Shown here in pieces: positions 13,010 through 32,358 of a stretch of 43,510 nt of DNA. The first letter of the stretch is position 1; each line of letters begins with the position of its first letter. Both the position numbers and the translations under genes were made by a program. Source of the DNA: Bacteroidota bacterium (lineage in GTDB: Bacteria; Bacteroidota; Ignavibacteria; Ignavibacteriales; Melioribacteraceae); contig JAMCSN010000294.1 of NCBI GenBank assembly GCA_023381535.1, forward strand, positions 1 through 43,510, in the 5' to 3' direction. The notes under the pieces are model-generated. The model searched no databases. It was not told the DNA's origin and saw only the letters and a list, made by a program, of their open reading frames with translations.

Positions 13010-13029
13010 AACTACCCTTATGTGTAGTT
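13010..13029. promoter_or_regulatory. Candidate response-regulator operator, site 1 (ACTAC-N8-GTAGT)
   Basis: The 20 bases AACTACCCTTATGTGTAGTT have perfect ACTAC/GTAGT arms eight bases apart. The site lies 72 bases upstream of the T9SS GHL10 start at 12938. Almost the same sequence with similar flanks (CATTTCA on one side, CAAATGG against GCAATGG on the other) occurs at 17012-17031. Binding by the NarL/LuxR-type regulator at 13095-13742 is inferred from genomic position. Confidence 0.6.
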
Positions 13030-13038
13030 TACAAATGG

Positions 13039-13055
13039 AGGGCTCAAATAGCCCT
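13039..13055. repeat. Short GC-rich inverted repeat between regulator and GHL10 gene
   Basis: AGGGCT and AGCCCT form a perfect 6-bp stem around CAAAT. It follows the response-regulator stop codon by about 40 bases on the minus strand and precedes operator site 1. Without a T run on the minus strand it is not a typical intrinsic terminator; it could be a weak terminator or processing hairpin. Confidence 0.4.
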
Positions 13056-13094
13056 AAGGCTGGTAAAATGCTTATGAGCAAACATTTTTAGAAA

Positions 13095-13742
13095 TTATTC
13101 CCATTTCGTCAGAATTCTCAGCGATTGACCTTTGCTCACAGCTTCTGCCTGACTGTGCACATGCAATTTTTCGTAAATGCTTCGAACGTGATATTTAATG
13201 CCGTCAACAGAAAGATACATTTCTTCCGAAATCTTCTTGTACGATTTACCTTCGGAAAGATGATTCAATATTGTTATTTCTTTTTCTGTAAGGTTGTCTT
13301 TTTCCTGCATTGGTTTGAATCTGTGAAATGACCTCAGCACTCTACGAGCAATTTGGGGCGTCATCGGTGAACCGCCTCTAATTGCAATGCGAATTGACTC
13401 TATTAGTTCATCAGGAGAAACTGATTTGTGCAAAAATCCTATTGCACCCGCCTGCAGAGATCCAAAAATACTTTTATCATCATCATGAATCGATATCATG
13501 ATAATCAAAGCTTTAGGATTGATATTGCCGATCAGTTCAGCACCTTTTATTCCCGATATTCCTTTCAACCCAATATCCAACAAAACGACCGTGGCTTTTT
13601 TTACCAACTCTGATTCCAACGCTTCTTCGCAAGAACTAAAAGTTGCCAGCACTACAAAATCTTCTTCTTGGGATAAAGTTGATTCCCAAGCTGTACGTGC
13701 GTACACATTATCTTCTATTATTACAATTTTGACCATAGCCAT
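13095..13742 (-). CDS. Two-component response regulator, NarL/FixJ (LuxR HTH) family
   Basis: The protein has 215 residues (213 if the second ATG at 13736 is used). The receiver domain has the acidic pair in VKIVIIEDN, the phospho-acceptor Asp near residue 56 in VVLLDIGLKG, the Ser/Thr switch region in IIMISIHDDD and the conserved Lys in GAIGFLHKS. The C-terminal LuxR-type helix-turn-helix covers LTEKEITILNHLSEGKSYKK through DGIKYHVRSIYEKL. It lies 44 bases downstream of the histidine kinase gene on the same strand, so the pair almost certainly forms one system. It is flanked by two GHL10 genes whose upstream regions share a palindrome suited to a dimeric LuxR-type regulator. I infer that it activates cell-wall catabolic genes on both sides. 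Confidence 0.93.
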   Translation of the reverse strand: MAMVKIVIIEDNVYARTAWESTLSQEEDFVVLATFSSCEEALESELVKKATVVLLDIGLKGISGIKGAELIGNINPKALIIMISIHDDDKSIFGSLQAGAIGFLHKSVSPDELIESIRIAIRGGSPMTPQIARRVLRSFHRFKPMQEKDNLTEKEITILNHLSEGKSYKKISEEMYLSVDGIKYHVRSIYEKLHVHSQAEAVSKGQSLRILTKWE

Positions 13743-13786
13743 TACGAAAATTTTTATTATTTCTTTAACTATCTTAAAAGTGATTA

Positions 13787-16700
13787 CTACAAGTCAACTG
13801 AAAAATACCATTTGGTTCCTTCGTTAATATTTGTAGTTAAACTATATTTTGCTTTTATCGCTTCTGCTCTTTCTCTTATGCTCGAAAGACCGGTGCTGGA
13901 ACTTTTCTCCTTTTCAACAAAACCAATTCCATCGTCTTCAACAACAAAAGTCAAAATTTTTCCGTTCAAAGAAAATTTAATGTTGACATTCTTACACTGA
14001 GAATGTTTGGCAACATTTGTAATAATCTCTTTACATATGCACCAAAGGTGTTGTCGTTTTTCCATTTCAATTTTCTCTGGCAAATTTCCGCTGGGCAAAT
14101 CAATATGATATTCTATGTGCTTCGAATCCAACAAGTCTGACGCATATCTGTTAAACTTAACTAGGAATTTTTGAAGCCCGTCCTCTTCGGGGTTAACAGT
14201 CCAAATTAAATCTTTGATTTTTTCTTGCGCGTCCGAAGAACTGCTGATTATCAAATTAAGGTACTTCGTTGTTTCTTCAGCATGGTTGTCGCCAAGTTTT
14301 TTCTCGATTGCTCTAACAAAATACTGAATGCTGGATAATGTCCCTCCTACCTCATCATGTAAATTTCTCGCTATTCTTGATCTTGTTCTTTCGATGCTTA
14401 ACAACCGCTGTAACCTGTTTTCATAGAATAAGAAGATAAGGAACAAAACTGTCACGAACGCCGCTCCTCTGAACCACCATGTACCCCAGAAAGGAGGAGT
14501 CACAATCAATTTGATTGATCTCTCAACGTCGCTCCAGATTCCATCGTTATTCGATGCCTTAACTTTAAGTATGTAAGTCCCCGGTTCAAGATTTGTAAAT
14601 TTTGCCTTGCGATTATTTGCATCAACATAAGTCCAATTATCCAAAACACCTTCAAGTTTATATGCGTATTGATTTTTTGACGGCACGGCGTAATGGAGAG
14701 CCGAGAATTCTATTCCGATCACCTTATCACTATGCGAGAGAGTGATTTCATCCATGTCGTTCAAAGGTTTTGTAAGAGGTGAATCCTCCCCCACTTTTAC
14801 TTCTTTATCCATGATGGTCAGTTTGGTCAGAGCAATCTGTGGTTTGTAAGGATTATCTTTTATTTCACTCGGATAAAAAGCAATCAACCCGTTTGAAAAT
14901 CCGAAAAATATTTTTCCGTCATCACTCTTAAACGAAATGTTTCCGTTTAATCCGGCGCTCGGTATTCCATCACTAGCATTATAATTTGTAAAAACTTTTT
15001 TTTGCTGATCAAACTTGGTAACGCCATCATTCGTTCTTAGCCATAAATTTCCGTCATCATCTTCTTGCATACTATATATGGTATTGTCGCTTAATCCTTG
15101 TGACGAAGAGAATCGTTCGAAGTTGTCTTTATCTCTATTGTATTTGTTTAGTCCTAGATACGTGCCAATCCAGAGATATCCGTTTCGCGTTTCATATATG
15201 CAGTAAATTCTATCATTTGAAATGGAAGTCAAGTCATTTGGACTGAGTCTGTAATGTTTGAACGTTTGATTCTTCTCGTTATAAATATCAAGACCGCCGT
15301 AAGTGCCGACCCAGATGACTCCTTTACTATCTTGAAACACACAACTCACTCTGGAATCGCCAATGGTTTTGGTATCCTCCTCATTGTGGCTGAATCTATG
15401 CAGTAAGTTATTTTGTCGATCATAAACGGTTAATCCGCCAGCCAGCGTGCCCGTCCAAAAACGGTTTTGTTTGTCTAAGTAAAACCACTTTACGTAGTTA
15501 TTGCCTAAGGTTGCAGATCCGTCATCTACGTACTGCACATTGTGAAATTGTCCTTTCGTATTGTCGTAATAATAAAAACCGTTATAGCTTCCCTCCCAAA
15601 GTACGTTGTTCTCGTCGATGTATAAGCACGAAGTTTGTTCCGTATGAAAATTTTCTTCTTGATCTACATTACCGAAGAACCGAATGTTCCTCGAATTACT
15701 TTTTAGTATACTGGAGATAGTTGGACCAGCCCAAATAATTTTATCGGTTATGAATTTAGAAGGCACACGATAAGTGTTGCCAAGAAAAGTTTTGAAGTTC
15801 TCGTTGAAATAAATCAGCTGAATATTTTTTCTCATCGAATCATATTTGTTCACGCCGGCAACTGTTCCAATCCAAATTACGCCTGTTCTGTCTTTGTAGA
15901 TTGCTCTAACTTTATTATCGTTTATTGTAGTCGGGTCATCCGGATTGGAATACAAATCTGTTTTAGCAAAAGTTTTTTTATCGAATCTGAAAAGTCCGTT
16001 GTATGTGCCAACCCAATATGAATCTTCATCTTCAAACATTTTTCTAACATTGAGATTATCGGGTCTCATCGGGAAATGAGGATCGTTCTTTATGCTTCTA
16101 AATTTTCTGCTGGCTCTATCAAAGAGATTTACTCCGCCGCCAAATGTTGCGACCCAAAAATTTCCTTTACTATCCTCAAGAAATTCCATCACCTGGTTAT
16201 GGCTTAAGCTCCCCTTGTTATGAGGATTATTTTGGAAATGGATAAATATATGTTCGCTTTCTTTATATAGATTTATTCCGGCATCAAATGTTCCTATCCA
16301 GAAATTCTTGTCTTTATCTTCGTATAAACAGCTAACCATGTTACTGCTGATTGAATTCGGATCGCTAGCATTATGCTTATAATGGGTGAAAGTTTCGGTT
16401 GCGGGATCAAAAAGATTTAAGCCGCCGCCCAATGTAGAAACCCAAATTCGGTCTTCAGAATCTTTATAGATTTTGAAAACGTTGTTATTGCTCAAAGATT
16501 TTGGATTTGAAGGATCAAACACGAAGCGTTTAAATTTTCCGGTTTTGCTGTCAAACTTATTTAATCCTCCTCCTAATGTTCCAACCCAAATTATTCCGTT
16601 ATGATCACCCATAAGATTAAAAACATGATTGTAGCTGAGACTCGTTTCATCGTTCAGGTGATTTCTGTAGTAGGTAAAGTTGTAACCGTCGAATTTACAG

Positions 16701-16891
16701 AGACCATTTTCCGTTGCCATCCATATAAATCCGACACTGTCCTGGTAAACATCGTTAACGTTGCCCGGTATCAGTCCCTGCTCTTTGCCGATTCTTTCAA
16801 AAACAATATTGTTGTGCTGTGCAGTAATCTGCTTAGAAATTAAAAGTAGTACTAAGGCCGGGAGTAATATTTTTTTTGAAAAATAAAGCAT
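13787..16891 (-). CDS. Membrane sensor histidine kinase with Reg_prop beta-propeller and Y_Y_Y domain
   Basis: The protein has 1034 residues. After a signal/anchor (ILLPALVLLLISKQITAQ) come about twelve Reg_prop repeats of the form VGTLGGGLNKFD, VSTLGGGLNLFD, IGTFDAGINLYK and so on, making up a periplasmic double propeller. A Y_Y_Y domain follows (YAYKLEGVLDNWTYVD, FTNLEPGTYILKVKASNNDG), then one transmembrane helix near 802-822 (WWFRGAAFVTVLFLIFLFY). The cytoplasmic part is a HisKA_3 dimerisation domain with the phospho-acceptor His near 845 in ARNLHDEVGGTLSSI and a HATPase with NVAKHS and DDGIGF. In Bacteroidota, hybrid systems of this architecture sense glycan fragments in the periplasm. 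Here receiver and DNA-binding domain are on a separate protein, encoded immediately downstream. Location among cell-wall hydrolases suggests it senses muropeptide or glycan fragments. Confidence 0.93.
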   Translation of the reverse strand: MLYFSKKILLPALVLLLISKQITAQHNNIVFERIGKEQGLIPGNVNDVYQDSVGFIWMATENGLCKFDGYNFTYYRNHLNDETSLSYNHVFNLMGDHNGIIWVGTLGGGLNKFDSKTGKFKRFVFDPSNPKSLSNNNVFKIYKDSEDRIWVSTLGGGLNLFDPATETFTHYKHNASDPNSISSNMVSCLYEDKDKNFWIGTFDAGINLYKESEHIFIHFQNNPHNKGSLSHNQVMEFLEDSKGNFWVATFGGGVNLFDRASRKFRSIKNDPHFPMRPDNLNVRKMFEDEDSYWVGTYNGLFRFDKKTFAKTDLYSNPDDPTTINDNKVRAIYKDRTGVIWIGTVAGVNKYDSMRKNIQLIYFNENFKTFLGNTYRVPSKFITDKIIWAGPTISSILKSNSRNIRFFGNVDQEENFHTEQTSCLYIDENNVLWEGSYNGFYYYDNTKGQFHNVQYVDDGSATLGNNYVKWFYLDKQNRFWTGTLAGGLTVYDRQNNLLHRFSHNEEDTKTIGDSRVSCVFQDSKGVIWVGTYGGLDIYNEKNQTFKHYRLSPNDLTSISNDRIYCIYETRNGYLWIGTYLGLNKYNRDKDNFERFSSSQGLSDNTIYSMQEDDDGNLWLRTNDGVTKFDQQKKVFTNYNASDGIPSAGLNGNISFKSDDGKIFFGFSNGLIAFYPSEIKDNPYKPQIALTKLTIMDKEVKVGEDSPLTKPLNDMDEITLSHSDKVIGIEFSALHYAVPSKNQYAYKLEGVLDNWTYVDANNRKAKFTNLEPGTYILKVKASNNDGIWSDVERSIKLIVTPPFWGTWWFRGAAFVTVLFLIFLFYENRLQRLLSIERTRSRIARNLHDEVGGTLSSIQYFVRAIEKKLGDNHAEETTKYLNLIISSSSDAQEKIKDLIWTVNPEEDGLQKFLVKFNRYASDLLDSKHIEYHIDLPSGNLPEKIEMEKRQHLWCICKEIITNVAKHSQCKNVNIKFSLNGKILTFVVEDDGIGFVEKEKSSSTGLSSIRERAEAIKAKYSLTTNINEGTKWYFSVDL

Positions 16892-17011
16892 TATAGAGGT
16901 TTGTACAGAGCTAAACTAAGCTTTGAGTAATCATTCATGTAATGGATCCTTGTTTGTTTTTAAAATAGCTATCTTTTTCAAAAGAGTAAAATTGTTCTAT
17001 ATCATTTCAAA

Positions 17012-17031
17012 ACTACCCTTTTATGTAGTTG
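17012..17031. promoter_or_regulatory. Candidate response-regulator operator, site 2 (ACTAC-N8-GTAGT)
   Basis: AACTACCCTTTTATGTAGTT has the same perfect ACTAC/GTAGT arms and eight-base spacing as site 1, and the two share CTACCCTT and ATGTAGTT or TGTAGTT cores. It sits in the divergent intergenic region, 69 bases before the GHL10 lipoprotein start at 17100 and 121 bases before the sensor-kinase start at 16891. It could serve both promoters and provide autoregulation. No other comparable palindrome is visible in this 208-base gap. Confidence 0.6.
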
Positions 17032-17099
17032 ATTTTGCAATGGCTTAATTAACTTTAATTAGATTCTAAACAAATTTTACGATTAAAATATTTTTTGTA

Positions 17100-18662
17100 A
17101 TGAAAGAATTATTGTTGAATAAGAATATTTTAACAATATCTCTTCTTATCATAATTCTAACAGCAAGCTGCACTACATTAAAAGTTGAGCAGACTGTAAA
17201 ATCAAGTCCATCATTTCCTTCAATTGAACGTGAATTCCGCGGGGCATGGGTAGCTACCGTTGCAAATATTTCTTGGCCAAGCAGGAAAGATTTGACTACT
17301 GAAGAGCAGAAGTGGGAAGCCATTAATATTCTTGATAAACTTAAACGGAATAATTTTAATGCTGTCGTTTTCCAGGCAAGACCGCAATGCGATGCATTTT
17401 ATAAAAGTGATATTGAGCCATGGTCCTATTACTTAACCGGAACACAGGGCAAAGCCCCTGAACCATATTATGACCCTCTGGAATTCTGGATAGAACAAGC
17501 ACACGCACGCGGAATGGAGTTTCACGTGTGGCTTAATCCTTTTAGAGCACATCACACCAGCGGCGGAGAAATCACAGATGCTTCCGTTGTAAAAAAACAT
17601 CCGGATTGGGCTGTGAAATTAAAATCCGGTTATTGGTGGTTGGATCCCAGCAAACCGGAAGTGCAAGATTACACACTAAGCGTTGTACAGGATATTACAA
17701 AACGGTACGACATAGACGGGATTCACTTTGATGATTACTTCTACCCTTATCCTTCATACAACAATGAAGAAGATTTTCCCGATGATGCAAGCTGGAAAAA
17801 ATATACCGAGGATGGCGGAAAATTATCGAAGGCAGATTGGCGGCGTGAAAACATTAACAGGTTTATTCAAAGAGTTTACAACGGCATCAAAGAGATAAAA
17901 CAAAATGTAAAATTCGGTTTGAGTCCTTTTGGAATTTGGAGGCCAGGGTATCCCGAATCTGTAGAAGGTTTCGACCAATATGAAAAACTCTTTGCCGATT
18001 CTAAGCTATGGATTAACGAAGGTTGGGTTGATTATTGGTCGCCCCAGCTTTATTGGAAAATAAATTCGCTCAAGCAAAGTTTTCCTATCTTATTAAGCTG
18101 GTGGAAAAATGAAAACCTAAAGGGAAGACATTTCTGGCCGGGGATTAGCATCGATAGAGAAAACAACGAGGTAAACAATATTGAAGTTATAAATCAAATC
18201 ATGACTATACGCGCGATGCTTCCCAAATCACCGGGAAATATTTGCTGGAGTGCCAATCCAATTATTAATAACAAAGATCTCGCCGACGCTTTACTGAACG
18301 GCCCATACAAAAAACAAGCGTTGGTTCCGGCAACAAAATGGTTCAAGAGTCAGCCAATCTCTTCACCGGAATTTACCATGCATGAAGAAAATGATTCGGT
18401 AAAAATTTTATGGAATAAGAAAGATTTATCGAAAGTTTTTTTGTGGGTTGTATATTTTAAGTACGGCAACAAGTGGGAATATGAAATACTAAGCAGCGAT
18501 AAAAATTCTTACACCGTTCCAATCTCCAAAGAGTACCGATTCATGAACGATTCTGGTGTTGTCACGACTAAAAATTTTGAATTGAAAGAGACCGCAGTTA
18601 CCGCCGTTGATAGAATTAGCAATGAGAGTATTCCGGTAATCAAACAACTTGAAAGACAATAA
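17100..18662 (+). CDS. GHL10 (YngK/DUF187-type) glycoside hydrolase lipoprotein
   Basis: The protein has 520 residues. A lipoprotein signal ends in ILTASC with the lipid-accepting Cys near residue 24. The GHL10 TIM barrel occupies ~40-380 and closely follows the T9SS paralog at 10545-12938: REFRGAWVATVANISWPSR, VVFQARPQCDAFYKSD, EFHVWLNPFRA, the acidic strand IDGIHFDDYFYPYPS and SPQLYWK. The last ~120 residues form a small FN3-like beta domain rather than a sorting tail. It should act in the periplasm or on the membrane surface. It opens the plus-strand run leading to amidase, amino-sugar kinase and AmpG-like permease, which points to peptidoglycan glycan as the substrate (inference). Candidate operator site 2 is 69 bases upstream. 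Confidence 0.9.
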   Translation: MKELLLNKNILTISLLIIILTASCTTLKVEQTVKSSPSFPSIEREFRGAWVATVANISWPSRKDLTTEEQKWEAINILDKLKRNNFNAVVFQARPQCDAFYKSDIEPWSYYLTGTQGKAPEPYYDPLEFWIEQAHARGMEFHVWLNPFRAHHTSGGEITDASVVKKHPDWAVKLKSGYWWLDPSKPEVQDYTLSVVQDITKRYDIDGIHFDDYFYPYPSYNNEEDFPDDASWKKYTEDGGKLSKADWRRENINRFIQRVYNGIKEIKQNVKFGLSPFGIWRPGYPESVEGFDQYEKLFADSKLWINEGWVDYWSPQLYWKINSLKQSFPILLSWWKNENLKGRHFWPGISIDRENNEVNNIEVINQIMTIRAMLPKSPGNICWSANPIINNKDLADALLNGPYKKQALVPATKWFKSQPISSPEFTMHEENDSVKILWNKKDLSKVFLWVVYFKYGNKWEYEILSSDKNSYTVPISKEYRFMNDSGVVTTKNFELKETAVTAVDRISNESIPVIKQLERQ

Positions 18663-18793
18663 TGCTTTTCCAAAACAACATTTAGACTTTATATAACCGC
18701 ACAATAAGCAATATCACATTTGATCTTATTGATATTTATTATTGAATACTTATATGTAGCGTAATAAGAAGGCGTCACAACAATAGGTGTTTT

Positions 18794-21439
18794 ATGAAAA
18801 AACTTACCTTTGTAATACTTTTCATGATTTTAGGATCAGCTAATAATTATGCAACAAACACTCCTGATTACTACAAAGACAAAATCCAATTGATAGATCT
18901 TGATCATGCTAAGTTCTCCGATTTCAAATCGCTTGTTAACACTGTGAATGAGAAAATTAGTCAAGCTTCACTAAATAATTATGATGCTGTACTTCTAAGA
19001 TCAGAAATATTTTCAGACATATTCACGCATCCAATCGCAAAATCACCGGCGCTTCAGCTAATAAAATCTGCTTGCGAAACTGCCAAACGGAACAATCTAA
19101 AATTGTTCATCGACTTGGATTTTGCGAAAAACAACCCGAACAATTTACAGTCCGAATCAACAAAGGAAATAAAATCCAACATTAATTTGCTTGTGTCCGT
19201 CTGCCAGATTGACGGCTTCTATTTTTCAGATATCAACTTCAATTCCGAGAGCAATTATGATTTGTTCGAAGACATTGTTGTTGAATCTGCAATGGTAAAA
19301 CCATACCTGCTAATCGCAACTTCAAAAAATTCCGTGAATAATGACTCGACTAAAAGAACTAAATTATTGGAAAATGGAATTATTGATTTTGTAGTTAACG
19401 AGAGACCTATCTTTACAATAGAGTATAATAAAAACGCCAACATCGATCCGAATCAAAAGTTTCTGAAAAGTTATCTCAAACGTTTAACACCATATCATTT
19501 TATAAAACTAGATTTTTCCGAGCTACTAAAAACCAATTCAGCTAGGAATGTTCATCTTCCGGATGGAAGGACGAAAGAGTTTGGAAGGGACCAATCACTT
19601 AATTTTATTTCGCTGGCAAAGGGCGACTCATTAAAATTTAGCATTGGAAATACAGCTTATAGTTATTCCAAAAAAGATTGGGCCATTCCATACAATTATC
19701 TACTCCACCAAGATAAAAGTTTTAGCCGCAGCGGTGAATGGATTGAATTCAGAAAACCATTTGCAAGAATTAGAAGTAACGACACATACAATTTACTGTG
19801 CAGAACAAAATTTCCTTCCATGGCATTCATCAACGGAGAAAAAGTTAAAATTTATAAGACCGGAATCTTTTTCAAAAAAATAAAATTGGTAGAAGGTCTC
19901 AATAAACTTAGAGCAGAAGCTGTAAGCAGCAAAGGTGAAAAAGCTTTGTATGAAGATATGGTTCTGTATAAAAAGCCCGATACTTCTTTGGAAGCAACTA
20001 AGTTCGGTATTGATTCTACTTCTATTCGACCAAATGAAAACTTGGTACTTCTGCCCAGCGATTTATTGACAGTTAAATTTAACGCCACCAAAAATCAAAA
20101 AGCTCTGGTTGAAATCGTGCCCTCAGATAAAGTCTTCGAGTGTTTTGCGAATGATCCTAATAACGTTAACAGTTATGTGGCGGCAATTCCGTTAAATGAA
20201 TTCAACAAGAACCAAAAGTATGGCATAAAAGTAATTCTTAAGTCTGCTGATTCGACCAACCAAAAGTCGGTAGAAAAAATTTCCAAAAACCACTTTGTCA
20301 TCAAAGACAAAAATGATTTTCCGTTTCTTGCTACCACCGAGGACAATTCCCTTTTTACTTATACTCTTGCACCGATACGCTTAGGCGCTCCGTTGAGAAT
20401 TGAATTACCTAAGGATGTTATTCTAAAATCGAACGGAATATTTGGAAATTTTTACCGGGTTCGGCTTAGCGAGACCGAAGAAGGTTACATCTCCAACGAA
20501 TATGTTAAAGAACTTCCGGCAGGGACAATTCAGCCAAGCTATTTTATAAATCCCATCACGAGCTTTCCATCAGACACTGGAGACATCGTGGAAATTCCGT
20601 ACTTAGAAAACGTTCCTTACGATGTATATGCCGACCCCTATTCAAAAAGAATAACAATTAATTTGTACGGAGTAAAAACCAGCAGCACATGGATCATTCA
20701 CAAACCGAATCTGAAATACATTGAAGAAATTACCTGGCAGCAAATTTCCAAAGGAACTTATCGCATATACGTTAATTTGAAGACGGATAAAATTTGGGGT
20801 TACGATATCAAGCCGCACGGAAAGGAATTGATCTTTAGAATCAAATATCCCCCGGTTTACCATTTGAAAAGTCCTTTGCCGCTTAAAGGGATTAAGATTT
20901 CGATCGAAGCCGGTCACGGTGGAAGTAACTCGGGTGCAATTGGTTTATCGGGAGTAAAAGAAAAAGATATTAATCTTTCTCTCTCAAAAAAAATAGAAAA
21001 ACTTTTTAAGAGTAAAGGAGCTCAAGTTTTACAAGTTAGAGATACCGACAGAGACATGAGTTTGACATTGAAACGAGATACGGTAACCAACTCGGATGCA
21101 AACATACACATCAGCATTCACGCTAACGCGAGCGACCCGGAAGATGAGTTTTTAGGAACATCAGGCACCGCAACATTTTACAACAATCCATTCTGGGCTA
21201 AATTTTCCGAGTTTGTTTTTAACAGATTGATTCAGCTGAGTTTAAAACCGTTTGGTTCCGTCGGATCGTTCAACTACCGAGTTATCAGAATGTCGGATAT
21301 GCCGGCAATCTTAGTTGAACAAGCATTTTTGTCCAATGCCGAAGACGAAGAAAAATTGACCGATGATAAGTTCAGGGACAAAATGGCTCAGAAGATTTAT
21401 GAAGGATTGATAGATTATCTTAAATACATGAAAGACTAG
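18794..21439 (+). CDS. N-acetylmuramoyl-L-alanine amidase (Amidase_3) with degenerate GHL10-like N-terminal domain
   Basis: The protein has 881 residues and a signal peptide (MKKLTFVILFMILGSANNYA). Residues ~30-240 resemble a decayed GHL10 barrel: YDAVLLRSEIFSDIF, LIKSACETAKRNNLKLFIDLDF and CQIDGFYFSDINF align in order with the two neighbouring GHL10 enzymes, but the DD pair after the IDG strand is SD. An SH3-like segment lies near 525-575 (NFYRVRLSETEEGYISNEY), then an AMIN-like beta domain near 600-690. The C-terminal ~180 residues are a full Amidase_3 zinc enzyme: EAGHGG, the Glu in SGVKEKD, SIHANA and catalytic Glu in LVEQAFLSNAEDE. It should cleave MurNAc-L-Ala bonds in the periplasm. 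It is 132 bases after the GHL10 gene and 15 before the kinase gene. Confidence 0.92.
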   Translation: MKKLTFVILFMILGSANNYATNTPDYYKDKIQLIDLDHAKFSDFKSLVNTVNEKISQASLNNYDAVLLRSEIFSDIFTHPIAKSPALQLIKSACETAKRNNLKLFIDLDFAKNNPNNLQSESTKEIKSNINLLVSVCQIDGFYFSDINFNSESNYDLFEDIVVESAMVKPYLLIATSKNSVNNDSTKRTKLLENGIIDFVVNERPIFTIEYNKNANIDPNQKFLKSYLKRLTPYHFIKLDFSELLKTNSARNVHLPDGRTKEFGRDQSLNFISLAKGDSLKFSIGNTAYSYSKKDWAIPYNYLLHQDKSFSRSGEWIEFRKPFARIRSNDTYNLLCRTKFPSMAFINGEKVKIYKTGIFFKKIKLVEGLNKLRAEAVSSKGEKALYEDMVLYKKPDTSLEATKFGIDSTSIRPNENLVLLPSDLLTVKFNATKNQKALVEIVPSDKVFECFANDPNNVNSYVAAIPLNEFNKNQKYGIKVILKSADSTNQKSVEKISKNHFVIKDKNDFPFLATTEDNSLFTYTLAPIRLGAPLRIELPKDVILKSNGIFGNFYRVRLSETEEGYISNEYVKELPAGTIQPSYFINPITSFPSDTGDIVEIPYLENVPYDVYADPYSKRITINLYGVKTSSTWIIHKPNLKYIEEITWQQISKGTYRIYVNLKTDKIWGYDIKPHGKELIFRIKYPPVYHLKSPLPLKGIKISIEAGHGGSNSGAIGLSGVKEKDINLSLSKKIEKLFKSKGAQVLQVRDTDRDMSLTLKRDTVTNSDANIHISIHANASDPEDEFLGTSGTATFYNNPFWAKFSEFVFNRLIQLSLKPFGSVGSFNYRVIRMSDMPAILVEQAFLSNAEDEEKLTDDKFRDKMAQKIYEGLIDYLKYMKD

Positions 21440-21454
21440 TTCAACAAGTTGATT

Positions 21455-22387: not shown

Positions 22388-22403
22388 AACCAGAGTTGAA
22401 TTA

Positions 22404-23918: not shown

Positions 23919-23941
23919 TTTCTCTGCACACGGAGTATTTT

Positions 23942-25132
23942 ATGAAAAAAATATTTTTTCTACTTTTTTTGTCAATGATACTTCAACTTAATGCACAGGA
24001 GGACAAGATTAACTCTGTAATCAAAGTTATAGCAGATACCGAACATCATTATGCGCCTGACAAAAGAACTGCCGTTTGGGAAGTAAGCGCAAATGAACTG
24101 AATGGAGTAATCACATTAAGCGGTGAGACAAATATTAAAGCTGCAAAAAATTACTTGCTCGATAAGCTGAAGACAATGAATGTTCCTCTCAAAGATGAAA
24201 TACAAACGCTGCCGGCTAAAGATTTGGGAGAAAATATTTACGGTATCGTCAACTTATCTGTTGCAAATATCAGAACCGAACCCGAGGATCGCGCAGAGCT
24301 TGCCTCCCAATCTCTATTGGGAACTTGTGTGAAAATCTTAAAGAAAATTCCCGGTTATTGTTTAATACAAACGCCGGATGAATACATTGGTTGGATGGAT
24401 AACGACGGATTGGTTCCCGTCAACAAAACAGCAATTGAAAATTGGATGCAATCCGAAAAGGTAATTTTTACAAAAGAATTTGGATTTGTTTTTGCAACGC
24501 CGGACATTTCAGAAAATCGCGTTTCAGATTTAGCCGCCGGAGATTTAGTATCGCTTGAAAGTGAAGAGAATAATTTTTACAAAGTTAAATATCCCGATAA
24601 CAGAATTGGTTTCATTCCAAAGTCTGACTGTGAACCATTTAAGAGTTGGCTGGATAAAAGAAATCCAACCGGAGATGACATAATTTCAACCACAAAACTT
24701 TTTCTAGGATTTCCATATTTATGGGGAGGCACTTCCGTAAAAGGTATGGACTGCAGCGGTTTTACAAAGACCGTTTATTTTATGAATGGAATCGTACTAC
24801 CGCGTGATGCATCACAACAAGTTCACACCGGCGTGCTGGTTGATACTAAATCCGGATTCGGTAATTTGCAGACGGGTGATTTATTGTTTTTTGGTTTCGC
24901 GGCAACAGACTCCACAAAAGAAAGAATAACCCATGTGGGAATTTACATCGGCAACCTAAAATTCATTCACAGCTCCGGTATGGTAAAAATTAATTCGTTC
25001 GATAAGAACTCACCCGATTACAGTGATTTTAGAACAATGCATTTCATCCGCGCAAAAAGAATTTTGGGATCGCTCGATAAAAACGGAATTACCACCATAA
25101 AGAAGAACAAATTTTATTTTGGAGAAATGTGA
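23942..25132 (+). CDS. Secreted NlpC/P60 peptidase with SH3 domains (gamma-D-Glu-diamino acid endopeptidase type)
   Basis: The protein has 396 residues, a signal peptide (MKKIFFLLFLSMILQLNAQ) and GGAG seven bases before its ATG. Residues ~25-85 have a BON-like pattern (GVITLSGETNIKAAKNYLLD). Two bacterial SH3 domains follow (YGIVNLSVANIRTEPEDRAE with YIGWMDNDG, and a second ending RIGFIPKSD). The catalytic NlpC/P60 domain contains nucleophile Cys271 in GMDCSGFTKT, the His in THVGIYIG and a third polar residue in FIHSSG. This is the YkfC/dipeptidyl-peptidase VI architecture, which releases L-Ala-gamma-D-Glu from stem peptides with a free N-terminal Ala. The next gene encodes the epimerase for exactly that dipeptide and overlaps it by one base. 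Confidence 0.92.
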   Translation: MKKIFFLLFLSMILQLNAQEDKINSVIKVIADTEHHYAPDKRTAVWEVSANELNGVITLSGETNIKAAKNYLLDKLKTMNVPLKDEIQTLPAKDLGENIYGIVNLSVANIRTEPEDRAELASQSLLGTCVKILKKIPGYCLIQTPDEYIGWMDNDGLVPVNKTAIENWMQSEKVIFTKEFGFVFATPDISENRVSDLAAGDLVSLESEENNFYKVKYPDNRIGFIPKSDCEPFKSWLDKRNPTGDDIISTTKLFLGFPYLWGGTSVKGMDCSGFTKTVYFMNGIVLPRDASQQVHTGVLVDTKSGFGNLQTGDLLFFGFAATDSTKERITHVGIYIGNLKFIHSSGMVKINSFDKNSPDYSDFRTMHFIRAKRILGSLDKNGITTIKKNKFYFGEM

Positions 25133-26277
25133 TGGCACAAAATAGAAGAAAATTTCTTACTCAAGTTGGTTTAATCGGCGGTGCTGTAATGTCTGGGGGA
25201 TTAAACACAAACATCTTTGCAAAAAAAATTAATATCACAAAAAAGAATTCAACCATGAAATTCTCATTCAAACCTTATACCTTAGAGTTGAAACACGTAT
25301 TCACGTTAGCAACCAGTTCCCGTACCACAACACCGGTTATGTTGACAAAGATTGAATATGAAGGTGTCACAGGTTACGGCGAAGCTTCTATGCCCCCTTA
25401 CCTCGGTGAGTCGCATGAAACCGCAGCAAAGTTTTTATCTAAAGTTGATCTTGCACAATTCAAAGATCCTTTTGATATGGAAACGATTTTAGAATATGTA
25501 GATGAGATCGACACGTTTAATCCGGCGGCAAAAGCTTCGGTGGACATTGCCTTGCATGATCTGGTTGGAAAACTTATCGGTCAACCATGGTACAAGATGT
25601 GGGGATTCAACAAAGACAAAACTCCTTACACTTCGTTTACGATCGGCATTGATACGAAGGATGTTATAATTCAGAAGACAAAAGAAGCAGCCGAATACAA
25701 AATTCTCAAAGTCAAACTTGGGCGTGATACCGATAAAATGTTGATCGAAACCATTCGCTCGATCACCGATAAACCGATCACTGTAGATGTGAATCAAGGT
25801 TGGAAAGACAAATTCTTTGCGCTGGACATGATCAATTGGCTGAAAGATAAAAATGTGTTGTACGTTGAACAACCTATGCCGAAAGAAATGGTTGATGACA
25901 TGGCTTGGTTAACGGAAAAAAGTCCTTTGCCAACAATGGGGGACGAGAGTGTGCAAAGACTTCCCGATGTTATAAAAGCGCACGGCGTTTATTCCGGCAT
26001 TAATATTAAGCTGATGAAATCAACCGGATTGCGGGAAGCATTTAAAATGCTGAACCTTGCAAAAGCTCTTAACATGAAAATCATGCTCGGCTGCATGACC
26101 GAGACTTCGTGCGCAATTTCCGCAGCATCGCAACTAGCACCTGAAGTTCACTACGCCGATCTTGACGGCGCTTTACTAATCAAGAATGATGTCTTTGAGG
26201 GAACAAGAATTATTGATGGTAAAGTGACCTTAACGGATAAACCGGGAATCGGATTGACAAAAGTTTTGCCTTATTAG
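25132..26277 (+). CDS. Dipeptide epimerase (L-Ala-D/L-Glu epimerase type), Tat-exported
   Basis: The ATG at 25132 overlaps the previous stop codon (TGATG) and is preceded by GGAG; the GTG one codon earlier is not needed. The 381-residue protein begins with a twin-arginine leader (NRRKFLTQVGLIGGAVMSGG) and so is predicted to be exported folded. The enolase-superfamily muconate-lactonizing/AEE barrel shows the catalytic lysine strand KILKVKLG, metal ligands in VDVNQGW, YVEQPMP and MGDESV, and the second catalytic lysine in GINIKLMKS. Coupling to the NlpC/P60 gene identifies the likely substrate as L-Ala-D-Glu from murein. The export signal implies that epimerisation happens outside the cytoplasm before dipeptide uptake or hydrolysis. 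Confidence 0.92.
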   Translation: MAQNRRKFLTQVGLIGGAVMSGGLNTNIFAKKINITKKNSTMKFSFKPYTLELKHVFTLATSSRTTTPVMLTKIEYEGVTGYGEASMPPYLGESHETAAKFLSKVDLAQFKDPFDMETILEYVDEIDTFNPAAKASVDIALHDLVGKLIGQPWYKMWGFNKDKTPYTSFTIGIDTKDVIIQKTKEAAEYKILKVKLGRDTDKMLIETIRSITDKPITVDVNQGWKDKFFALDMINWLKDKNVLYVEQPMPKEMVDDMAWLTEKSPLPTMGDESVQRLPDVIKAHGVYSGINIKLMKSTGLREAFKMLNLAKALNMKIMLGCMTETSCAISAASQLAPEVHYADLDGALLIKNDVFEGTRIIDGKVTLTDKPGIGLTKVLPY

Positions 26278-26288
26278 AATTATTTTTT

Positions 26289-26397: not shown

Positions 26398-26399
26398 TT

Positions 26400-28757
26400 T
26401 CATTCCGTAACTTTTTTCAGTTCTCTTGTGTGCTTGTAAAACTCGTCGAGCGTTAACTCTCTCAAGAAATTAATTCCTTTAGCTGCTCTCATTCGTGGAT
26501 GAGGATGCTTCAGGAAGAAATCCCTTCCCAAACATTCTCTCAACACGTTGTACTGTTCTACATGTATTCGCTGAACTAAACGATTGAACGGTCCATCATA
26601 TTCCCAGCTTGGGAAGCTTGCACCTTTTTGAGAGCTAAAACTTTTCATGAAAGTGTTTTCAAGAATGGCAAACGAATTCAAACTTACCGGCACATAAATA
26701 TTTGCTTCTGCCGGATGGAAACGATACCAAACATTTCTGTATCCCCAAATTTTAATATTCTTATTGCCGGAATGTTTTTCGTATAGCTGCAGCGCTTCGG
26801 ATACCGTCTGCATTACTTTGTAATGAGTATCGGGTCCGCTTCCTTCGGGATCAAATGCCACGGTAACAATTGTCGGCTTAATTTTCTTCATCAACTCAAA
26901 AACCGGAATGACGTCTCTGTTGATTTGCGGCACTTCGGTGAAAATATCTCCTTGATAAAATCCGAGACGCAGATGCGACACGTCTTCAACACTGAAACCG
27001 AAATAACGCCAGAAAATTTCGCTCTCAAATTCCCTCTGCATTCCTTTTAAAATTTGTACATAGGAAATGTCTTTCTTGCCGGGGTATTGAGTTTTGAAAT
27101 AATTTATTAATTCATTCACTCTGTCTTTAAGATAAACGAAGCTGTCTTCTTCATAAACTTCCATAATGTTTCTGAGAGTTCTTCTTGCTTGTCCTTCGTC
27201 TTGAAGAGTCCGGCTGTGCCCCGCTACTCCATCGAGGTACATCATCACATCACGGTTTTTTCCATCAATATTTCCGCGGGTAAAATCAAGCTCATCAAAC
27301 TTTTGGGAGAATATATTTGAACTTAGAAAGCTGAGAAGAGTTTCCATCAAGTTCAGCATGAATGAATTTGTTACAGCAGTAAATCCGCTTGTCATGTAAG
27401 CGAAGTGATGCTTGTTCGAAGGATTTCTAACAAGATGAGCTATATACGGCAGATATGCCAATTCAATATCGTCGTGATGAGGCGCTGTGTGAAGTATAAC
27501 TTCGTTATCAACTGTTTCCATTCCTTTCATCAGACGTGTTACTACGTTCTCTTCGATTGTCTTCGTAATTTCAGCTGAATTGCCGCCAAGCGTTTTCAAA
27601 ACGTGACTAGTGATTTTATTTTCTTCCAAATCTTTGTTTGTCAGCTTTGAAAGTTTTTTCTTTTTATCTACGACAAGATTGATGATGCCTCGTTCAATTG
27701 ATTGCTGAGTTAAAGGAGACTCATTCAACACTTCAACAAACCTTCTCTCACTCAATCTTAAAGCCGCACCGTTGGTCAAGAAGAAGCGGGAATTGTTCAG
27801 CTTTTGCAACGCAGTCGCCGGATAAGTATTTGATTCCGTATTCTGAACCGAATCCCTTACAATGTTTGCTTTAGCTTCTCCCGCAGCAATTATTATTGCC
27901 GTTGCATTCGTGTTGTGCGTAATCGTGTCTAATCCAATCGTGATTACTAATCTATTTCTAGCAACTTCAATTCCGCCAAGGTCGGTTGCAGCCGCGGCTT
28001 GAGTTTCGTAGTTGGTTTCAATTAATCGCGTAGTTGAAAAATGATCGCTTCCCTTCACGTTGAAACCAATATGCCCGTCAGGACCAATGCCGCCAAGGAA
28101 AAATCCGATGCCGCCCGCTGAACGAATTTTCCTTTCGTAATTGGTACAGTACTCGTCAACTATTTCGATTGTTTCTTTTTGCAAACGCTCCACTCTGTTT
28201 GAAGCCCAACGTGTTCTTAACGAAAGATCAACTTTTTGATCAGGAAAGATTTCATTCAATGGAAGATTTTCAGCAGTCGGAATTTCATTTATGTTCATCA
28301 ACAAAGCGTTCTTAGCGTTCAACTTCCACAATCTGAAGTAAAAGTTCAGGATGTAGTAGTAGAAACTGTTGTGCTGTCCACTATCAATAGGATAAAATTC
28401 GTCAATCTGAACAAAACGCAATTTTTCCAACGATGGTTTTTTCTTTCCGTCAATTCCAACATCTTTTAGTATAGCTTGAACGGCGGAAGTGTCCCACTCT
28501 TTCAAAATCTTTGCGACCCACTTAATAAAATGTTCCGGAGTCTTGCCGGTGGGAAGAGATATAACACCCTCCGGATTTTCAATTACCCATTCGATGAACC
28601 GTAATGCTGTTAGCTTTCCTAACTCAGGAAAACTTTCTACTTGTACGATCGGAATTTTCTCTACCGGCTCATAAATTAAATTCTTGCCGGATAATGCAAG
28701 GTAATGCTCTTCAACTTTTGAATGAGTTGTAAATTGTTTCTCGTGCGTTTGCGTCAT
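26400..28757 (-). CDS. nagB: Fusion of glucosamine-6-phosphate deaminase (NagB)-like and PIG-L deacetylase-like domains
   Basis: The protein has 785 residues and no signal peptide, so it should be cytoplasmic. Residues ~50-370 are NagB-like: ISLPTGKTPEHF, the acidic site in VQIDEFYPI and FLGGIGPDGHIGF with the Asp and His of the E. coli D141/H143 pair. The family's next catalytic Glu (FNEP in E. coli) is Val here (FNVKG). Residues ~430-700 are PIG-L-like: HTAPHHDDIEL, matching the zinc motif, and a second His in DPEGSGPDTHYKV. Such fusions occur in Bacteroidota. One attractive reading is that the PIG-L half deacetylates GlcNAc-6-phosphate from MurQ and the NagB half deaminates it, replacing NagA plus NagB; this is inference. 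The gene is bracketed by the two MITE-like repeats. Confidence 0.85.
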   Translation of the reverse strand: MTQTHEKQFTTHSKVEEHYLALSGKNLIYEPVEKIPIVQVESFPELGKLTALRFIEWVIENPEGVISLPTGKTPEHFIKWVAKILKEWDTSAVQAILKDVGIDGKKKPSLEKLRFVQIDEFYPIDSGQHNSFYYYILNFYFRLWKLNAKNALLMNINEIPTAENLPLNEIFPDQKVDLSLRTRWASNRVERLQKETIEIVDEYCTNYERKIRSAGGIGFFLGGIGPDGHIGFNVKGSDHFSTTRLIETNYETQAAAATDLGGIEVARNRLVITIGLDTITHNTNATAIIIAAGEAKANIVRDSVQNTESNTYPATALQKLNNSRFFLTNGAALRLSERRFVEVLNESPLTQQSIERGIINLVVDKKKKLSKLTNKDLEENKITSHVLKTLGGNSAEITKTIEENVVTRLMKGMETVDNEVILHTAPHHDDIELAYLPYIAHLVRNPSNKHHFAYMTSGFTAVTNSFMLNLMETLLSFLSSNIFSQKFDELDFTRGNIDGKNRDVMMYLDGVAGHSRTLQDEGQARRTLRNIMEVYEEDSFVYLKDRVNELINYFKTQYPGKKDISYVQILKGMQREFESEIFWRYFGFSVEDVSHLRLGFYQGDIFTEVPQINRDVIPVFELMKKIKPTIVTVAFDPEGSGPDTHYKVMQTVSEALQLYEKHSGNKNIKIWGYRNVWYRFHPAEANIYVPVSLNSFAILENTFMKSFSSQKGASFPSWEYDGPFNRLVQRIHVEQYNVLRECLGRDFFLKHPHPRMRAAKGINFLRELTLDEFYKHTRELKKVTE

Positions 28758-28779
28758 GTTGATTGCTTGTCTTTCTTAG

Positions 28780-28894: not shown

Positions 28895-28898
28895 AAAA

Positions 28899-31304
28899 CT
28901 ACTTGAGTAAAATTAACTTTTTAGTGCTTACAAAATTTCCCGCTTCAAGTCTATAAAAGTATATTCCGCTTGCAAGATGATATTTGTCGGTTGATAGTAG
29001 AATTTTGTAATGACCAGCCTGCTGAAATACGTCCACAAGCGTTGCAACTTCTCTTCCAAGTACATCATAAACTTTTAACGTTACGTTTCCAGCTGCCGGC
29101 AACTGATAACCAATTACTGTAGAAGGGTTAAACGGATTGGGATAATTTTGTTCAAGCTGATATGTAGCAGGCAAACCTTCTGCTAACTTAACATCGGTAA
29201 TGATGTCTGAAGTACAATCGTCAAAAAATAATCTTCCGCTGGTTGATCCAACGCGGGTTTGAACAACGTTAATGCCTTGGAATTGAATTGTACCGCTTCC
29301 GGGAACATCCGTTAGCAATACTTTCTTCAATTTCCATCCGGTCCAGTTGAGCGTGTCAACTTTAACTTTAGCTTCATTTGTTCCTTGACGCAAGAATTTA
29401 TATTCAATAATGTTTTTGCTGTTGTCACCGAATATCCAAACTCCAATGCTAGCTTGCGGGGTGGCAGTCAACAAGATGGGATTAAGCAATGATAAATCTA
29501 TCAAACCGGTGCTATCTGAAAATTGGTAATTAATGTTGCCGGAATATGTCCCGCTTTTCTTTCTTTCTGTAGACAACGAGAAACTTGTCTGGCTCACTGT
29601 AATTCCCTTTGTGTTCGGAGAGTTCAGCGGCGACTGCCAAACATTGTTTGTTTCAAAATCTTCTATAACATTTCCCGTGAACGTGTATCTCTTTTCAGTT
29701 TGGAATTCAATAACAATAGAAGAAGCAAGAGTAACGTATTCAACGTCGCCAATCCCGGCTTTCAAATTTATTCTGTAAGTAGCATCATTGTCTAAAGGGG
29801 TCTTCGGCTCGAACGAGATAAGTCCGTCAACGCTTCCTAAACTTTTCACGGTTGCCGGAATCGAATTACCGTTAGCGTCATTCAGTGAAATTCTTCCGCC
29901 TAAAGTTGTGCCGTCAATTCCCTTTTCAAATTTCACATTTATCAAGACGGTCGTTGAAACATCGGTTAAATTATTAGTTGGATAAGTAGACAATAGTTTC
30001 AGTTCGGACCTGGTCGTAAAGCTAAAAGTCTTGTCCTGATTTAAATGAATTCCAAATATTGACTTAGCATTTCTTGAAATTGAAACCGAGTATTTTGTTC
30101 CCTGTGTTAGGCTTTTACTTGGTATAAAGCTAATCTTCTTAAAATCATTTTCCCATTTGAAATTTCCTGCGATCGTAGGAGAAATGGTGATAGCCTTTTC
30201 AGTTTCCTGGTAGTTCATAAAGTTGCTAAATTCTAAAACAATGTTTGATGTATTACTCACAGCCACCGAACTATCAGCAGGCGAATAATTTACTATTGAA
30301 GGAGGATCTAGAACAGGATTTAGAGACGAAAATTTATCGTAAAATACAGACTCATTCTTTACTGCAGTTACATCCATTGTATCAGGTGGAATTCCGTTGC
30401 TAAATTCAAATATTAGTTTGTAATTACCAGGATTAACATTATCAAAGAGATAATAACCATTGTTAAAGTTGTCACCGTTGTAAACTATTCCTCCTGGTTG
30501 TAATGTAACTTTAACATTATTTATTGGCTTATAACTATCAAAAGTATTAAGCGGAGAATAAGAAGAAGGGACTTTCACTTGAATATCTCTTACAATGCCG
30601 GCAAGAATTCCGGTTTGAAAATTTCCGCCGCTGAAGTATTGAAGAAACGCACGCGCAATTCCCCACGCTTCATGTTTGAGATAACCTTCACTTTTCAATC
30701 TATATGCTTCGGGAAAGTAATCATGAAACGAACCTTCCGATAAAGTACCGGGCATATTCAATCCCTTAAACACACCAAGATACGGCTGACCGGTCCCGTA
30801 AAAATCAAAATCACCGTAAACCATTTTGTTCACGGTTCTATCTGCTTTATTAATATTATCGGCAAGATAATTCGCCATTACGAGCGAACCGGGATAAGTG
30901 GGCGCGTTTGTATGTCCTTGAAAAAGTATCAATGTATAATTTGATTTTGTAGAAGTACCGGTTGCATTGCTGTGAATTGCATGGAAATAGTCCACGTTGT
31001 TGGTATTCGCAATTGCAACGATTTGTGATAGAGGCAAATCGTCCGCAGTGGTGTTTGTCTCACGCGTCATCACAACAGTAGCTCCAAGATTCTGAAGCAT
31101 TGCTTTGAGGTATAATCCCTTAGCTAAATTACCGTCAGATTCCCAAAATACAATTCCATCATCAAGAATAATCTCGCGATCATTTGAATCATGGCCGCCG
31201 TGACCGGGGTTAATACAGATTTTATAACCAGCTAATGATTGTGCGAACAGCGTAATTGTTCCTAAAACAAGAAACGAAATGAGCGTTAGTATAATTTTTT
31301 TCAT
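28899..31304 (-). CDS. T9SS-secreted N-acetylmuramoyl-L-alanine amidase with Ig-like domains
   Basis: The ATG at 31304 (MKKIILTLISFLVLGTITLFAQ) is used instead of the TTG at 31319, which overlaps the upstream gene. Residues ~25-225 are an Amidase_3 zinc domain: CINPGHGGHDS, the Glu in VFWESDGNL, HAIHSNATG and the catalytic Glu in GTLSEGSF. A carboxypeptidase-regulatory-like segment follows (GGIVYNGDNFNNGYYLFDNV), then two SbsA/Big_5-type Ig domains (NIVLEFSNFM, FSFTTRS, IVIEFQTE) and a carbohydrate-binding-like beta region near 550-700. The end is a T9SS type A tail (NYPNPFNPSTVIGYQLP, VYDVLGREV, SGIYFYRLEAG). It should therefore act at or beyond the outer surface, for instance on peptidoglycan of other cells or on released fragments, unlike the periplasmic amidase at 18794. 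Confidence 0.9.
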   Translation of the reverse strand: MKKIILTLISFLVLGTITLFAQSLAGYKICINPGHGGHDSNDREIILDDGIVFWESDGNLAKGLYLKAMLQNLGATVVMTRETNTTADDLPLSQIVAIANTNNVDYFHAIHSNATGTSTKSNYTLILFQGHTNAPTYPGSLVMANYLADNINKADRTVNKMVYGDFDFYGTGQPYLGVFKGLNMPGTLSEGSFHDYFPEAYRLKSEGYLKHEAWGIARAFLQYFSGGNFQTGILAGIVRDIQVKVPSSYSPLNTFDSYKPINNVKVTLQPGGIVYNGDNFNNGYYLFDNVNPGNYKLIFEFSNGIPPDTMDVTAVKNESVFYDKFSSLNPVLDPPSIVNYSPADSSVAVSNTSNIVLEFSNFMNYQETEKAITISPTIAGNFKWENDFKKISFIPSKSLTQGTKYSVSISRNAKSIFGIHLNQDKTFSFTTRSELKLLSTYPTNNLTDVSTTVLINVKFEKGIDGTTLGGRISLNDANGNSIPATVKSLGSVDGLISFEPKTPLDNDATYRINLKAGIGDVEYVTLASSIVIEFQTEKRYTFTGNVIEDFETNNVWQSPLNSPNTKGITVSQTSFSLSTERKKSGTYSGNINYQFSDSTGLIDLSLLNPILLTATPQASIGVWIFGDNSKNIIEYKFLRQGTNEAKVKVDTLNWTGWKLKKVLLTDVPGSGTIQFQGINVVQTRVGSTSGRLFFDDCTSDIITDVKLAEGLPATYQLEQNYPNPFNPSTVIGYQLPAAGNVTLKVYDVLGREVATLVDVFQQAGHYKILLSTDKYHLASGIYFYRLEAGNFVSTKKLILLK

Positions 31305-31311
31305 AGTCGTG

Positions 31312-32232
31312 TTATTCAAACTTTAGAAGTAGTTCTCGAATTTGACCATCGTCGGTATTGTAAAAAATCTCCGAGTTACCGGCTCCCCAGGTAGGATAAA
31401 GTTTAATGTTGTTCTCGTCGGAGGTTAACTTATAGTATTTGCCGCTGTAGTAATTAACAATATATATGTTCGAAGAGATAACTCTAATGCCATCATCAAT
31501 ATCTTTCATGAACAGTATCCAATTGCCGTCCGCCGACCATGAAGGATAATTTGCATAACCGACAACTTTCAAAATGTTTCCGTCAAGATCTGAAACATAA
31601 GTGCCTTTACCGGCAAACGTAAAAAGTAATTTAGTTCTGTCCGACGAAAGTGAAACCCAGATGTAGTTTCCTTCTCCCATAGGCTGCAATTCTTTTTTAG
31701 AACTGTTGTCGGAAATTGTAATGTGATTCCCGTCCACGTAAGCTGTTTTTTGTGCTACAGTGGATTGAACGCTCATCCCTTTATTAATTCTAACCGGTGT
31801 ATTCGTATCATTAACATAACTTTGAAAAACATTTTGCGTGCTTCTACAAATCCTTAAATCCCTAATCCCCTTTTCCAAAACTCGTTTCACTTTGTTTGAA
31901 GTGTTAAATGAACTTAAGGATGTGGTTCTCTTTCCTTTTATGAATTGGTCTTCTCTAAAAATAATTTCGCCGGAGGTTTCATCGAAACTGGGTTCGTAAC
32001 CCGCACTCATTGCGTTGCTGACTTTAATTGTTTTTCCAGTCTTCAGATTTCTTGACCACAGACCTTGGTAATTATTTTTTGTGTACAGCAGGCTAGTTCC
32101 GTCAGGACTTATTGTTGGATAATAGAATCTCCCCTCTCTAAGATTGGTTACCGGTTTGTCTTCAGCAACAGTAACGTTTTGTGCAAATATCGGGAGGCTT
32201 GATAAAACTAATAACAGCAGCACCTTTCTCAT
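31312..32232 (-). CDS. Periplasmic PD40 (TolB-like) beta-propeller protein
   Basis: The protein has 306 residues, a signal peptide (MRKVLLLLVLSSLPIFAQ) and GGAGAG just before the ATG. PD40-type repeats are seen in YPTISPDGTSLLYTKN, YPSWSADGNWILFMKD and YPTWGAGNSEIFYNTD, spaced around a propeller similar in size to the C-terminal part of TolB. It has no enzymatic motif and no T9SS tail. It starts the minus-strand unit with the T9SS amidase, whose ATG lies only seven bases after this stop codon, so the two are co-translated. A role in binding cell-wall material or in amidase export or control is possible but unproven. Confidence 0.8.
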   Translation of the reverse strand: MRKVLLLLVLSSLPIFAQNVTVAEDKPVTNLREGRFYYPTISPDGTSLLYTKNNYQGLWSRNLKTGKTIKVSNAMSAGYEPSFDETSGEIIFREDQFIKGKRTTSLSSFNTSNKVKRVLEKGIRDLRICRSTQNVFQSYVNDTNTPVRINKGMSVQSTVAQKTAYVDGNHITISDNSSKKELQPMGEGNYIWVSLSSDRTKLLFTFAGKGTYVSDLDGNILKVVGYANYPSWSADGNWILFMKDIDDGIRVISSNIYIVNYYSGKYYKLTSDENNIKLYPTWGAGNSEIFYNTDDGQIRELLLKFE

Positions 32233-32338
32233 TTTCTCTCCATGAATATCTTCAACACATAAAATGCAGAATACCTTACAAAAACTGAATGAATCCGGCT
32301 ATTTCGGGAAGCAATTTATAGCTCCTGTCTACAAAACC

Positions 32339-32358
32339 AACTACACAATTAGGTGGTC
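32339..32358. promoter_or_regulatory. Candidate response-regulator operator, site 3 (weaker copy)
   Basis: AACTACACAATTAGGTGGTC keeps one full arm (ACTAC) and a one-mismatch second arm (GTGGT) with the same eight-base spacing. It matches the reverse complement of site 1 at 14 of 20 bases. It lies in the divergent region 32233-32430, 73 bases before the GNAT-murQ operon start at 32431, nearly the distance seen at sites 1 and 2, and 107 bases before the PD40 gene start. Confidence 0.4.

Follow-up and report, generated by a model that had tools for sequence, protein, structure and literature searches.

The window, a 43,510-nt stretch of contig JAMCSN010000294.1, carries a two-component system (TCS), made up of the sensor histidine kinase and the response regulator listed in Table 1, in an island of genes for glycosidases, amidases, peptidases and transporters that also has three palindromic sites. 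Both regulator domains scored above their Pfam cut-offs (Response_reg, 68.1 bits; GerE, 50.9 bits), identifying a receiver and a helix-turn-helix, and the kinase has the domains of a propeller sensor kinase, with HATPase_c at 26.1 bits, just under the cut-off of 26.4. These domains bear out the placement of a TCS between sites 1 and 2 that an earlier note on this DNA had proposed. GHL10b matches Cwp19 of C. difficile (E 7e-80), while the AmpG-, NagK-, epimerase- and NagB-like matches all fall under curated cut-offs and are mutually coherent. Together with MurQ, which is over its cut-off, these predictions give good support for a peptidoglycan-salvage programme among the putative targets; from that programme we would guess at a peptidoglycan-derived ligand. 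Beyond the island (36234-43274) the window encodes multihaem cytochromes, cytochrome c assembly proteins and a B12-binding radical SAM protein, apparently unrelated.

Table 1 Genes, predicted operator sites and predicted promoter elements in the window.
Feature	Position	Strand	Remarks
Receptor partner, no Pfam family	5276-7357	-	conserved adjoining receptor
TonB-dependent outer-membrane receptor	7372-10446	-	
GHL10a glycosidase with T9SS sorting tail	10545-12938	-	
Operator site 1, AACTACCCTTATGTGTAGTT	13010-13029	-	before T9SS GHL10 gene (ATG 12938), TonB receptor gene behind
LuxR/NarL-type response regulator, proposed binder	13095-13742	-	Pfam Response_reg and GerE
GIKYHVR, regulator residues 181-187	13182-13202	-	G[VI]KYH[VI]R in 14/14 orthologs
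Sensor histidine kinase	13787-16891	-	Reg_prop propeller, Y_Y_Y, HisKA_3, HATPase_c
Operator site 2, AACTACCCTTTTATGTAGTT	17011-17030	+	between GHL10 lipoprotein gene (ATG 17100) and kinase gene
Predicted -7 box, TAACTTTA	17050-17057	+	20 bp downstream of site 2
GHL10 lipoprotein (GHL10b)	17100-18662	+	relative of lytic transglycosylase Cwp19
N-acetylmuramoyl-L-alanine amidase (Amidase_3)	18794-21439	+	
BadF-type sugar kinase	21449-22387	+	NagK model, below cut-off
AmpG-like MFS transporter	22338-23918	+	below cut-off
NlpC/P60 peptidase with SH3 domains	23942-25132	+	
Enolase-superfamily epimerase, likely L-Ala-D/L-Glu type	25129-26277	+	below cut-off
Glucosamine-6-phosphate deaminase-like (NagB-like) protein	26400-28757	-	below cut-off
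T9SS-tailed amidase (Amidase_3)	28899-31319	-	
Operator site 3, AACTACACAATTAGGTGGTC	32339-32358	+	before GNAT-murQ (ATG 32431); GTGGT variant
Predicted -7 box, TAAATTCT	32378-32385	+	20 bp downstream of site 3
GNAT acetyltransferase, first gene of murQ operon	32431-33033	+	
MurQ, N-acetylmuramic acid 6-phosphate etherase	33067-33990	+	NCBIfam TIGR00274, 382 bits vs cut-off 302

All three palindromes described earlier are present, with site 2 lying one base to the left of its first placement. Sites 1 and 2 are identical at 18 of 20 bases and both have the exact form ACTAC-N8-GTAGT. The spacing of about 70 bp to the ATG, thought to be fixed, holds within the window; across orthologs the gap ranges from ~50 bp (L100) to ~246 bp (L034), and a fixed distance was rejected. 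Exact arms occur twice in the 3.23-Mb assembly, close to background (reversed control, 3), and both places are sites 1 and 2, 4 kb apart with the TCS between them. Allowing one mismatch gives 24 further arm places, including site 3 (reversed control, 189), so site 3 is not provable by arm matches alone. Genome-wide counts of ACTAC-N8-GTAGT, at or below those of the reversed control, were rejected as proof; they prove little and would suit palindromes that arose by chance or were simply inherited without function, and the case therefore rests on comparison with relatives. A refined pattern derived from these relatives, ACYACMYNNNNRKGTRGT, marks exactly sites 1, 2 and 3 and no other promoter in this assembly (control 0), with three more places when one mismatch is allowed (control 10). 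With a matrix that left out the window genome, the three sites scored 26.8, 25.7 and 22.4, respectively, and the next-best place in the window 3.7.

Close orthologs of the kinase (E <= 1e-150) were identified in 14 of 80 genomes of the family, window genome included (TCS+ genomes), the family being taken as Melioribacteraceae from the named relatives. Identity to the window kinase is 61-69% in 12 of the other 13 and 48% in G015. Named TCS+ relatives include a cultivated one, Stygiobacter electus 09-Me (L134), as well as a Melioribacter roseus MAG and further MAGs of Melioribacteraceae or Ignavibacteriae. Most TCS+ loci retain the arrangement GHL10b-[site 2]-kinase-regulator-[site 1]-GHL10a-TonB receptor. 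Site 1 has exact arms at 11 of the 14 loci, window included, and is missing in L040, L091 and L093; a site lies before the receptor gene in L091, L092 and L093. In G027 and G050 (L038 and L039) GHL10a is gone from the locus and site 1 is retained before the TonB receptor gene. Site 2, at no more than one mismatch, is found at all 12 TCS+ kinase loci (of 14) that hold both neighbouring genes, and also on a separate contig of G114 (L261). No site 2 was seen in L089, where the contig begins 483 bases before the kinase match, and in L040 (G015) GHL10b is absent from the kinase locus. Seven of the 14 loci (L033, L034, L037, L039, L040, L089 and L092) have a site between the kinase and regulator genes, where the window has none. 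Site 3, again at no more than one mismatch, precedes GNAT in 13/13 TCS+ genomes in which this gene was found, window included, with exact ACTAC...GTAGT arms in three relatives (G002, G023 and G027); the GTGGT form seen in the window is common among relatives. G015 contains no refined-pattern site, none being present before murQ (best score 4.6), and has one 1-mismatch site, before the regulator gene.

Site 3 was also predicted from the other two promoters. A held-out matrix, whose training set comprised 21 type-1 and type-2 sites of other genomes and no site from the GNAT-murQ promoter, gave scores of 20.4-29.7 at the GNAT-murQ loci of 12/12 TCS+ genomes, while the best place among 26 murQ loci of genomes without the TCS (TCS-) scored 8.9. 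A GNAT gene is recognisable at only two of these 26 loci, those of G003 and G005, which so serve as the strict controls.

G003 and G005, which belong to the same genus as the window genome, still carry both GHL10 genes (GHL10a and GHL10b), the run of genes from amidase to epimerase and GNAT-murQ; the interval separating their GHL10 genes contains no match to the kinase or the regulator. A MurQ tree groups them as sisters (100/92) within a clade of 14 rows (99/96), the other members of which are TCS+, and their placement beside G011 and G002 is supported at 82/92. As they are sisters, the missing TCS counts as one event, probably a single loss. In both genomes site 1 has lost its left arm and kept the right one (G005, GTGTAGT; G003, GTATAGT) along with the downstream promoter block. 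Site 2 is degraded in both, the G005 copy being recognisable with one arm mismatch (ACTACTCAATAATGTTGT), and no operator was found before GNAT in either genome. Operator arms are thus eroded while the promoter core stays, even though each genome retains at least one other propeller kinase. With the TCS missing, the operators eroded and the genes kept, these two genomes form a natural control.

The comparison shows that the predicted operator is conserved at orthologous promoters, accompanies the TCS and is eroded in genomes of the same genus that lack it. Of the earlier proposals, the association of the motif with cell-wall genes and its conservation before orthologs therefore stood up well, all three sites recurring in most or all TCS+ genomes and being absent or eroded in the two TCS- genomes of the genus. 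Chance or functionless inheritance, to which the background-level arm counts and the rank of site 3 as one of 24 one-mismatch places had lent some colour, keeps next to no probability beside a held-out prediction that succeeded at a separate promoter in 12/12 genomes and two TCS- genomes with eroded arms beside a retained promoter core.

Across the 14 TCS+ genomes ACYACMYNNNNRKGTRGT occurs at 44 places (control 2), with some in 13 of the 14; G003 and G005 have none. These comprise 11 copies of site 1, 13 of site 2 and 12 of site 3, plus one before a regulator gene and one before a receptor gene (both in G112), so that 38 precede island genes, the regulator gene or GNAT-murQ. The remaining six precede three other kinds of secreted-protein promoter. 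Four of them (L064, L065, L070 and L072) lie before genes for an FG-GAP/T9SS protein and a TonB receptor, in three relatives (G031, G050 and G046), and this operon probably extends the regulon; in the window genome no refined-pattern site lies before such an operon. The other two precede a gene for a T9SS phosphodiester glycosidase (L071) and one for a T9SS C39 peptidase (L068; here a cytochrome gene lies on the opposite side). Exact-arm sites falling outside the refined pattern were found before a GH20 hexosaminidase gene (L069) and, in TCS+ genomes, inside open reading frames (L067, L073 and L076), the latter looking like chance occurrences. With the stricter ACTACMYNNNNRKGTAGT, the 14 TCS+ genomes yielded 27 sites against a control of 1, and the 66 TCS- genomes 25 against a control of 19. 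Thirteen of these 25 are no more than 4 kb from genes for paralogous kinases or regulators; no such gene was present in the examined flanks, some of them short, of the other 12.

By sequence, the solved chains closest to the regulator are of the VraR type (5hev, 7ve6 and 4gvp), NarL (1a04) being further down. Its GIKYHVR segment we take to be part of the recognition helix (helix assignment after NarL). His845 of the kinase is invariant in 9/9 sequences of the ortholog alignment. A GVxYH helix occurs in three paralogs (L041, L042 and L215), all of which have sites with the same arms. Most TVR.H-helix paralogs have no such sites; L216 and L218 do, as do L217 and L219, which come from the same list as the 46 loci counted next but were chosen for having sites and stand outside that count (with them, loci with an exact site would be 6/48 instead of 4/46). 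Among 46 same-family paralog loci, a sample from the listed paralogs of the family with some omitted, 42 are without an exact site and four have one. A universal operator of propeller kinases was rejected, since 76 distant loci (80 minus four orthologs; 1.29 Mb) hold two sites, both in a single locus (L157) that is itself from Melioribacteraceae. In TCS- genomes, ACTAC-N8-GTAGT with other inner bases occurs at paralogous propeller-kinase/regulator loci (L215-L219, L262, L264 and L271), where the sites often adjoin the regulator gene and some have TAnnTT at +21 or +22.

Another regulator that merely co-occurs with the TCS might own the sites: we infer the link between site and TCS, and the family has paralogous TCSs with same-arm sites. 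This reading is very unlikely, as the presence of sites tracks the TCS, the TCS genes are themselves flanked by sites, the same arms recur at all three GVxYH-helix paralogs, and the sites of G003 and G005 have eroded despite at least one other propeller kinase in each. Our preferred binder for the sites is thus the regulator encoded between sites 1 and 2.

TAnnTT starts exactly 20 bp past the site in 10 of 12 copies of site 2 and 10 of 13 copies of site 3 (20/25 in all). In 2000 letter shuffles the count at the best offset averaged 2.7 and never exceeded 6, a test that overstates independence because rows within one promoter are related, although the two promoters are separate. At seven further promoter loci of TCS+ relatives, four of which (L064, L065, L070 and L072) front one kind of operon, the box lies at 20 or 21 in six, L065 being the miss; the latter has a block similar to the GTTyACAAATT of site 1 described below. 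TAnnTTTG is the reported -7 consensus of the Bacteroidota primary sigma factor (PMC7366714). Sites 2 and 3 accordingly have a TAnnTTTG-like -7 box at a fixed downstream distance, the geometry of a class II promoter of the sigma-ABfr kind, and a box ending at -7 would put the operator centre near -43, the position of a class II activator. Site 1 departs from this geometry, with TAnnTT at offset 20 in 0/11 loci. Instead, 9 of 11 TCS+ loci have GTTyACAAATT at offset 16, the exceptions being the window and L092; in the window GTTGCCAAATT (12984-12994) stands in its place. Site 2 as a site serving the kinase gene was rejected, TAnnTT in that direction reaching at most 2/12 at any offset; a shared divergent role of site 2, kinase gene included, may nevertheless exist.

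In the eroded site 2 of G005 (L213, 10029-10046), the right arm, GTTGT, supplies a TTG ~21 bp before a kept -7-like TATTTTCC box, which perhaps fits a shift to an activator-free promoter, in a single case.

These positions also bear on how the sites would act. Formation of RNA hairpins (attenuator or terminator) is conceivable for inverted repeats whose 8-base middle would let them pair, yet sites 2 and 3 precede the predicted -7 box, so that transcription from it would leave them out, and conserved one-arm changes (ACCAC with GTAGT) break pairing on one strand, making this explanation extremely unlikely. The same operator and regulator could instead act by repression, or by repression and activation, through covering the -33 region, given that the operator occupies the expected position of a -33 element and that the different spacing of site 1 to its promoter block may mean a different effect there. 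We consider this unlikely: the site-2 and site-3 consensus has no conserved TTTG near -33, as expected of activator-dependent promoters, and the TTG within GTTGT before the kept box of G005 fits activator independence, although in one case only.

Activation accounts best for these observations. We are fairly confident, from comparative sequence evidence, that AACTAC[AC][CT]NNNN[AG][GT]GTAGTT is the operator of the regulator and that the regulator activates genes for peptidoglycan degradation and salvage. Counting against this are the deviating promoter spacing of site 1 and its absence from three of 14 TCS+ loci, the lone one-mismatch site of G015, the partly retained operators and single TCS loss of G003 and G005, the sites at some TVR.H-helix paralogs, and the rarity of exact sites at paralogous and distant loci. 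In the proposed mechanism, the signal would be a glycan or muropeptide derived from peptidoglycan; on perceiving it outside the inner membrane, the kinase would phosphorylate the regulator, a dimer of which would bind the operator over the -33 region and recruit RNA polymerase. Export of GHL10 enzymes, TonB-dependent uptake and AmpG-like import would be induced, as would breakdown via MurQ and the NagB-like enzyme. More tentatively, the system might serve feeding on the walls of dead or neighbouring bacteria, the propeller kinase reading peptidoglycan debris outside the cell and commanding, through one dedicated operator, a complete programme of T9SS-dependent cleavage, TonB import and cytoplasmic salvage; a subset of paralogous kinase/regulator pairs in this family might reuse the arms, with the inner bases (AC, CC or AT) perhaps setting specificity. 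For the Ignavibacteria group, the analysis predicts an operator and a regulon that belong to a propeller-type two-component pair; by bringing GHL10 enzymes, TonB uptake and MurQ under a single predicted switch, it suggests that cell-wall debris is used as food in a regulated way.

Titles and abstracts of the openly licensed literature searched named neither this operator nor a regulon of this group. The predicted operator and regulon appear to be new, with strong comparative support, and the system is of a known kind, a two-component system with a palindromic operator. It resembles the LiaR/VraR-type regulators of cell-envelope stress in its palindromic operators, its theme of cell-wall surveillance and its sequence kinship to VraR. 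The LiaR motif is T(X)4C(X)4G(X)4A (PMC7191749). Read by hand against this motif, the sites gave no match at the symmetric position. The system described here also differs from LiaR/VraR in having a large propeller kinase as sensor and wall digestion and salvage as targets. NarL operators consist of heptamers (TACYYMT) in a 7-2-7 arrangement, giving TAC-N10-GTA; inverted TAC...GTA arms are common to both systems, but are two bases closer here (TAC-N8-GTA). In Bacteroidota, sugar-uptake loci have propeller (Reg_prop/Y_Y_Y) hybrid sensor systems formed by a single hybrid protein. Here too a Reg_prop and Y_Y_Y sensor lies beside TonB receptor and glycosidase genes, whereas the kinase and the LuxR-type regulator are separate and the putative targets are peptidoglycan genes. 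Among enzymes related to these targets, DigH is a GHL10 protein. DigH of E. coli is reported to cleave peptide-free glycans (PMC12288456), and Cwp19, which has a GHL10 domain, was shown to act as a lytic transglycosylase (PMC6016235). In contrast to Cwp19 and DigH, the locus in the window has two GHL10 genes, each behind one copy of the predicted operator and one of them encoding a T9SS-tailed enzyme.
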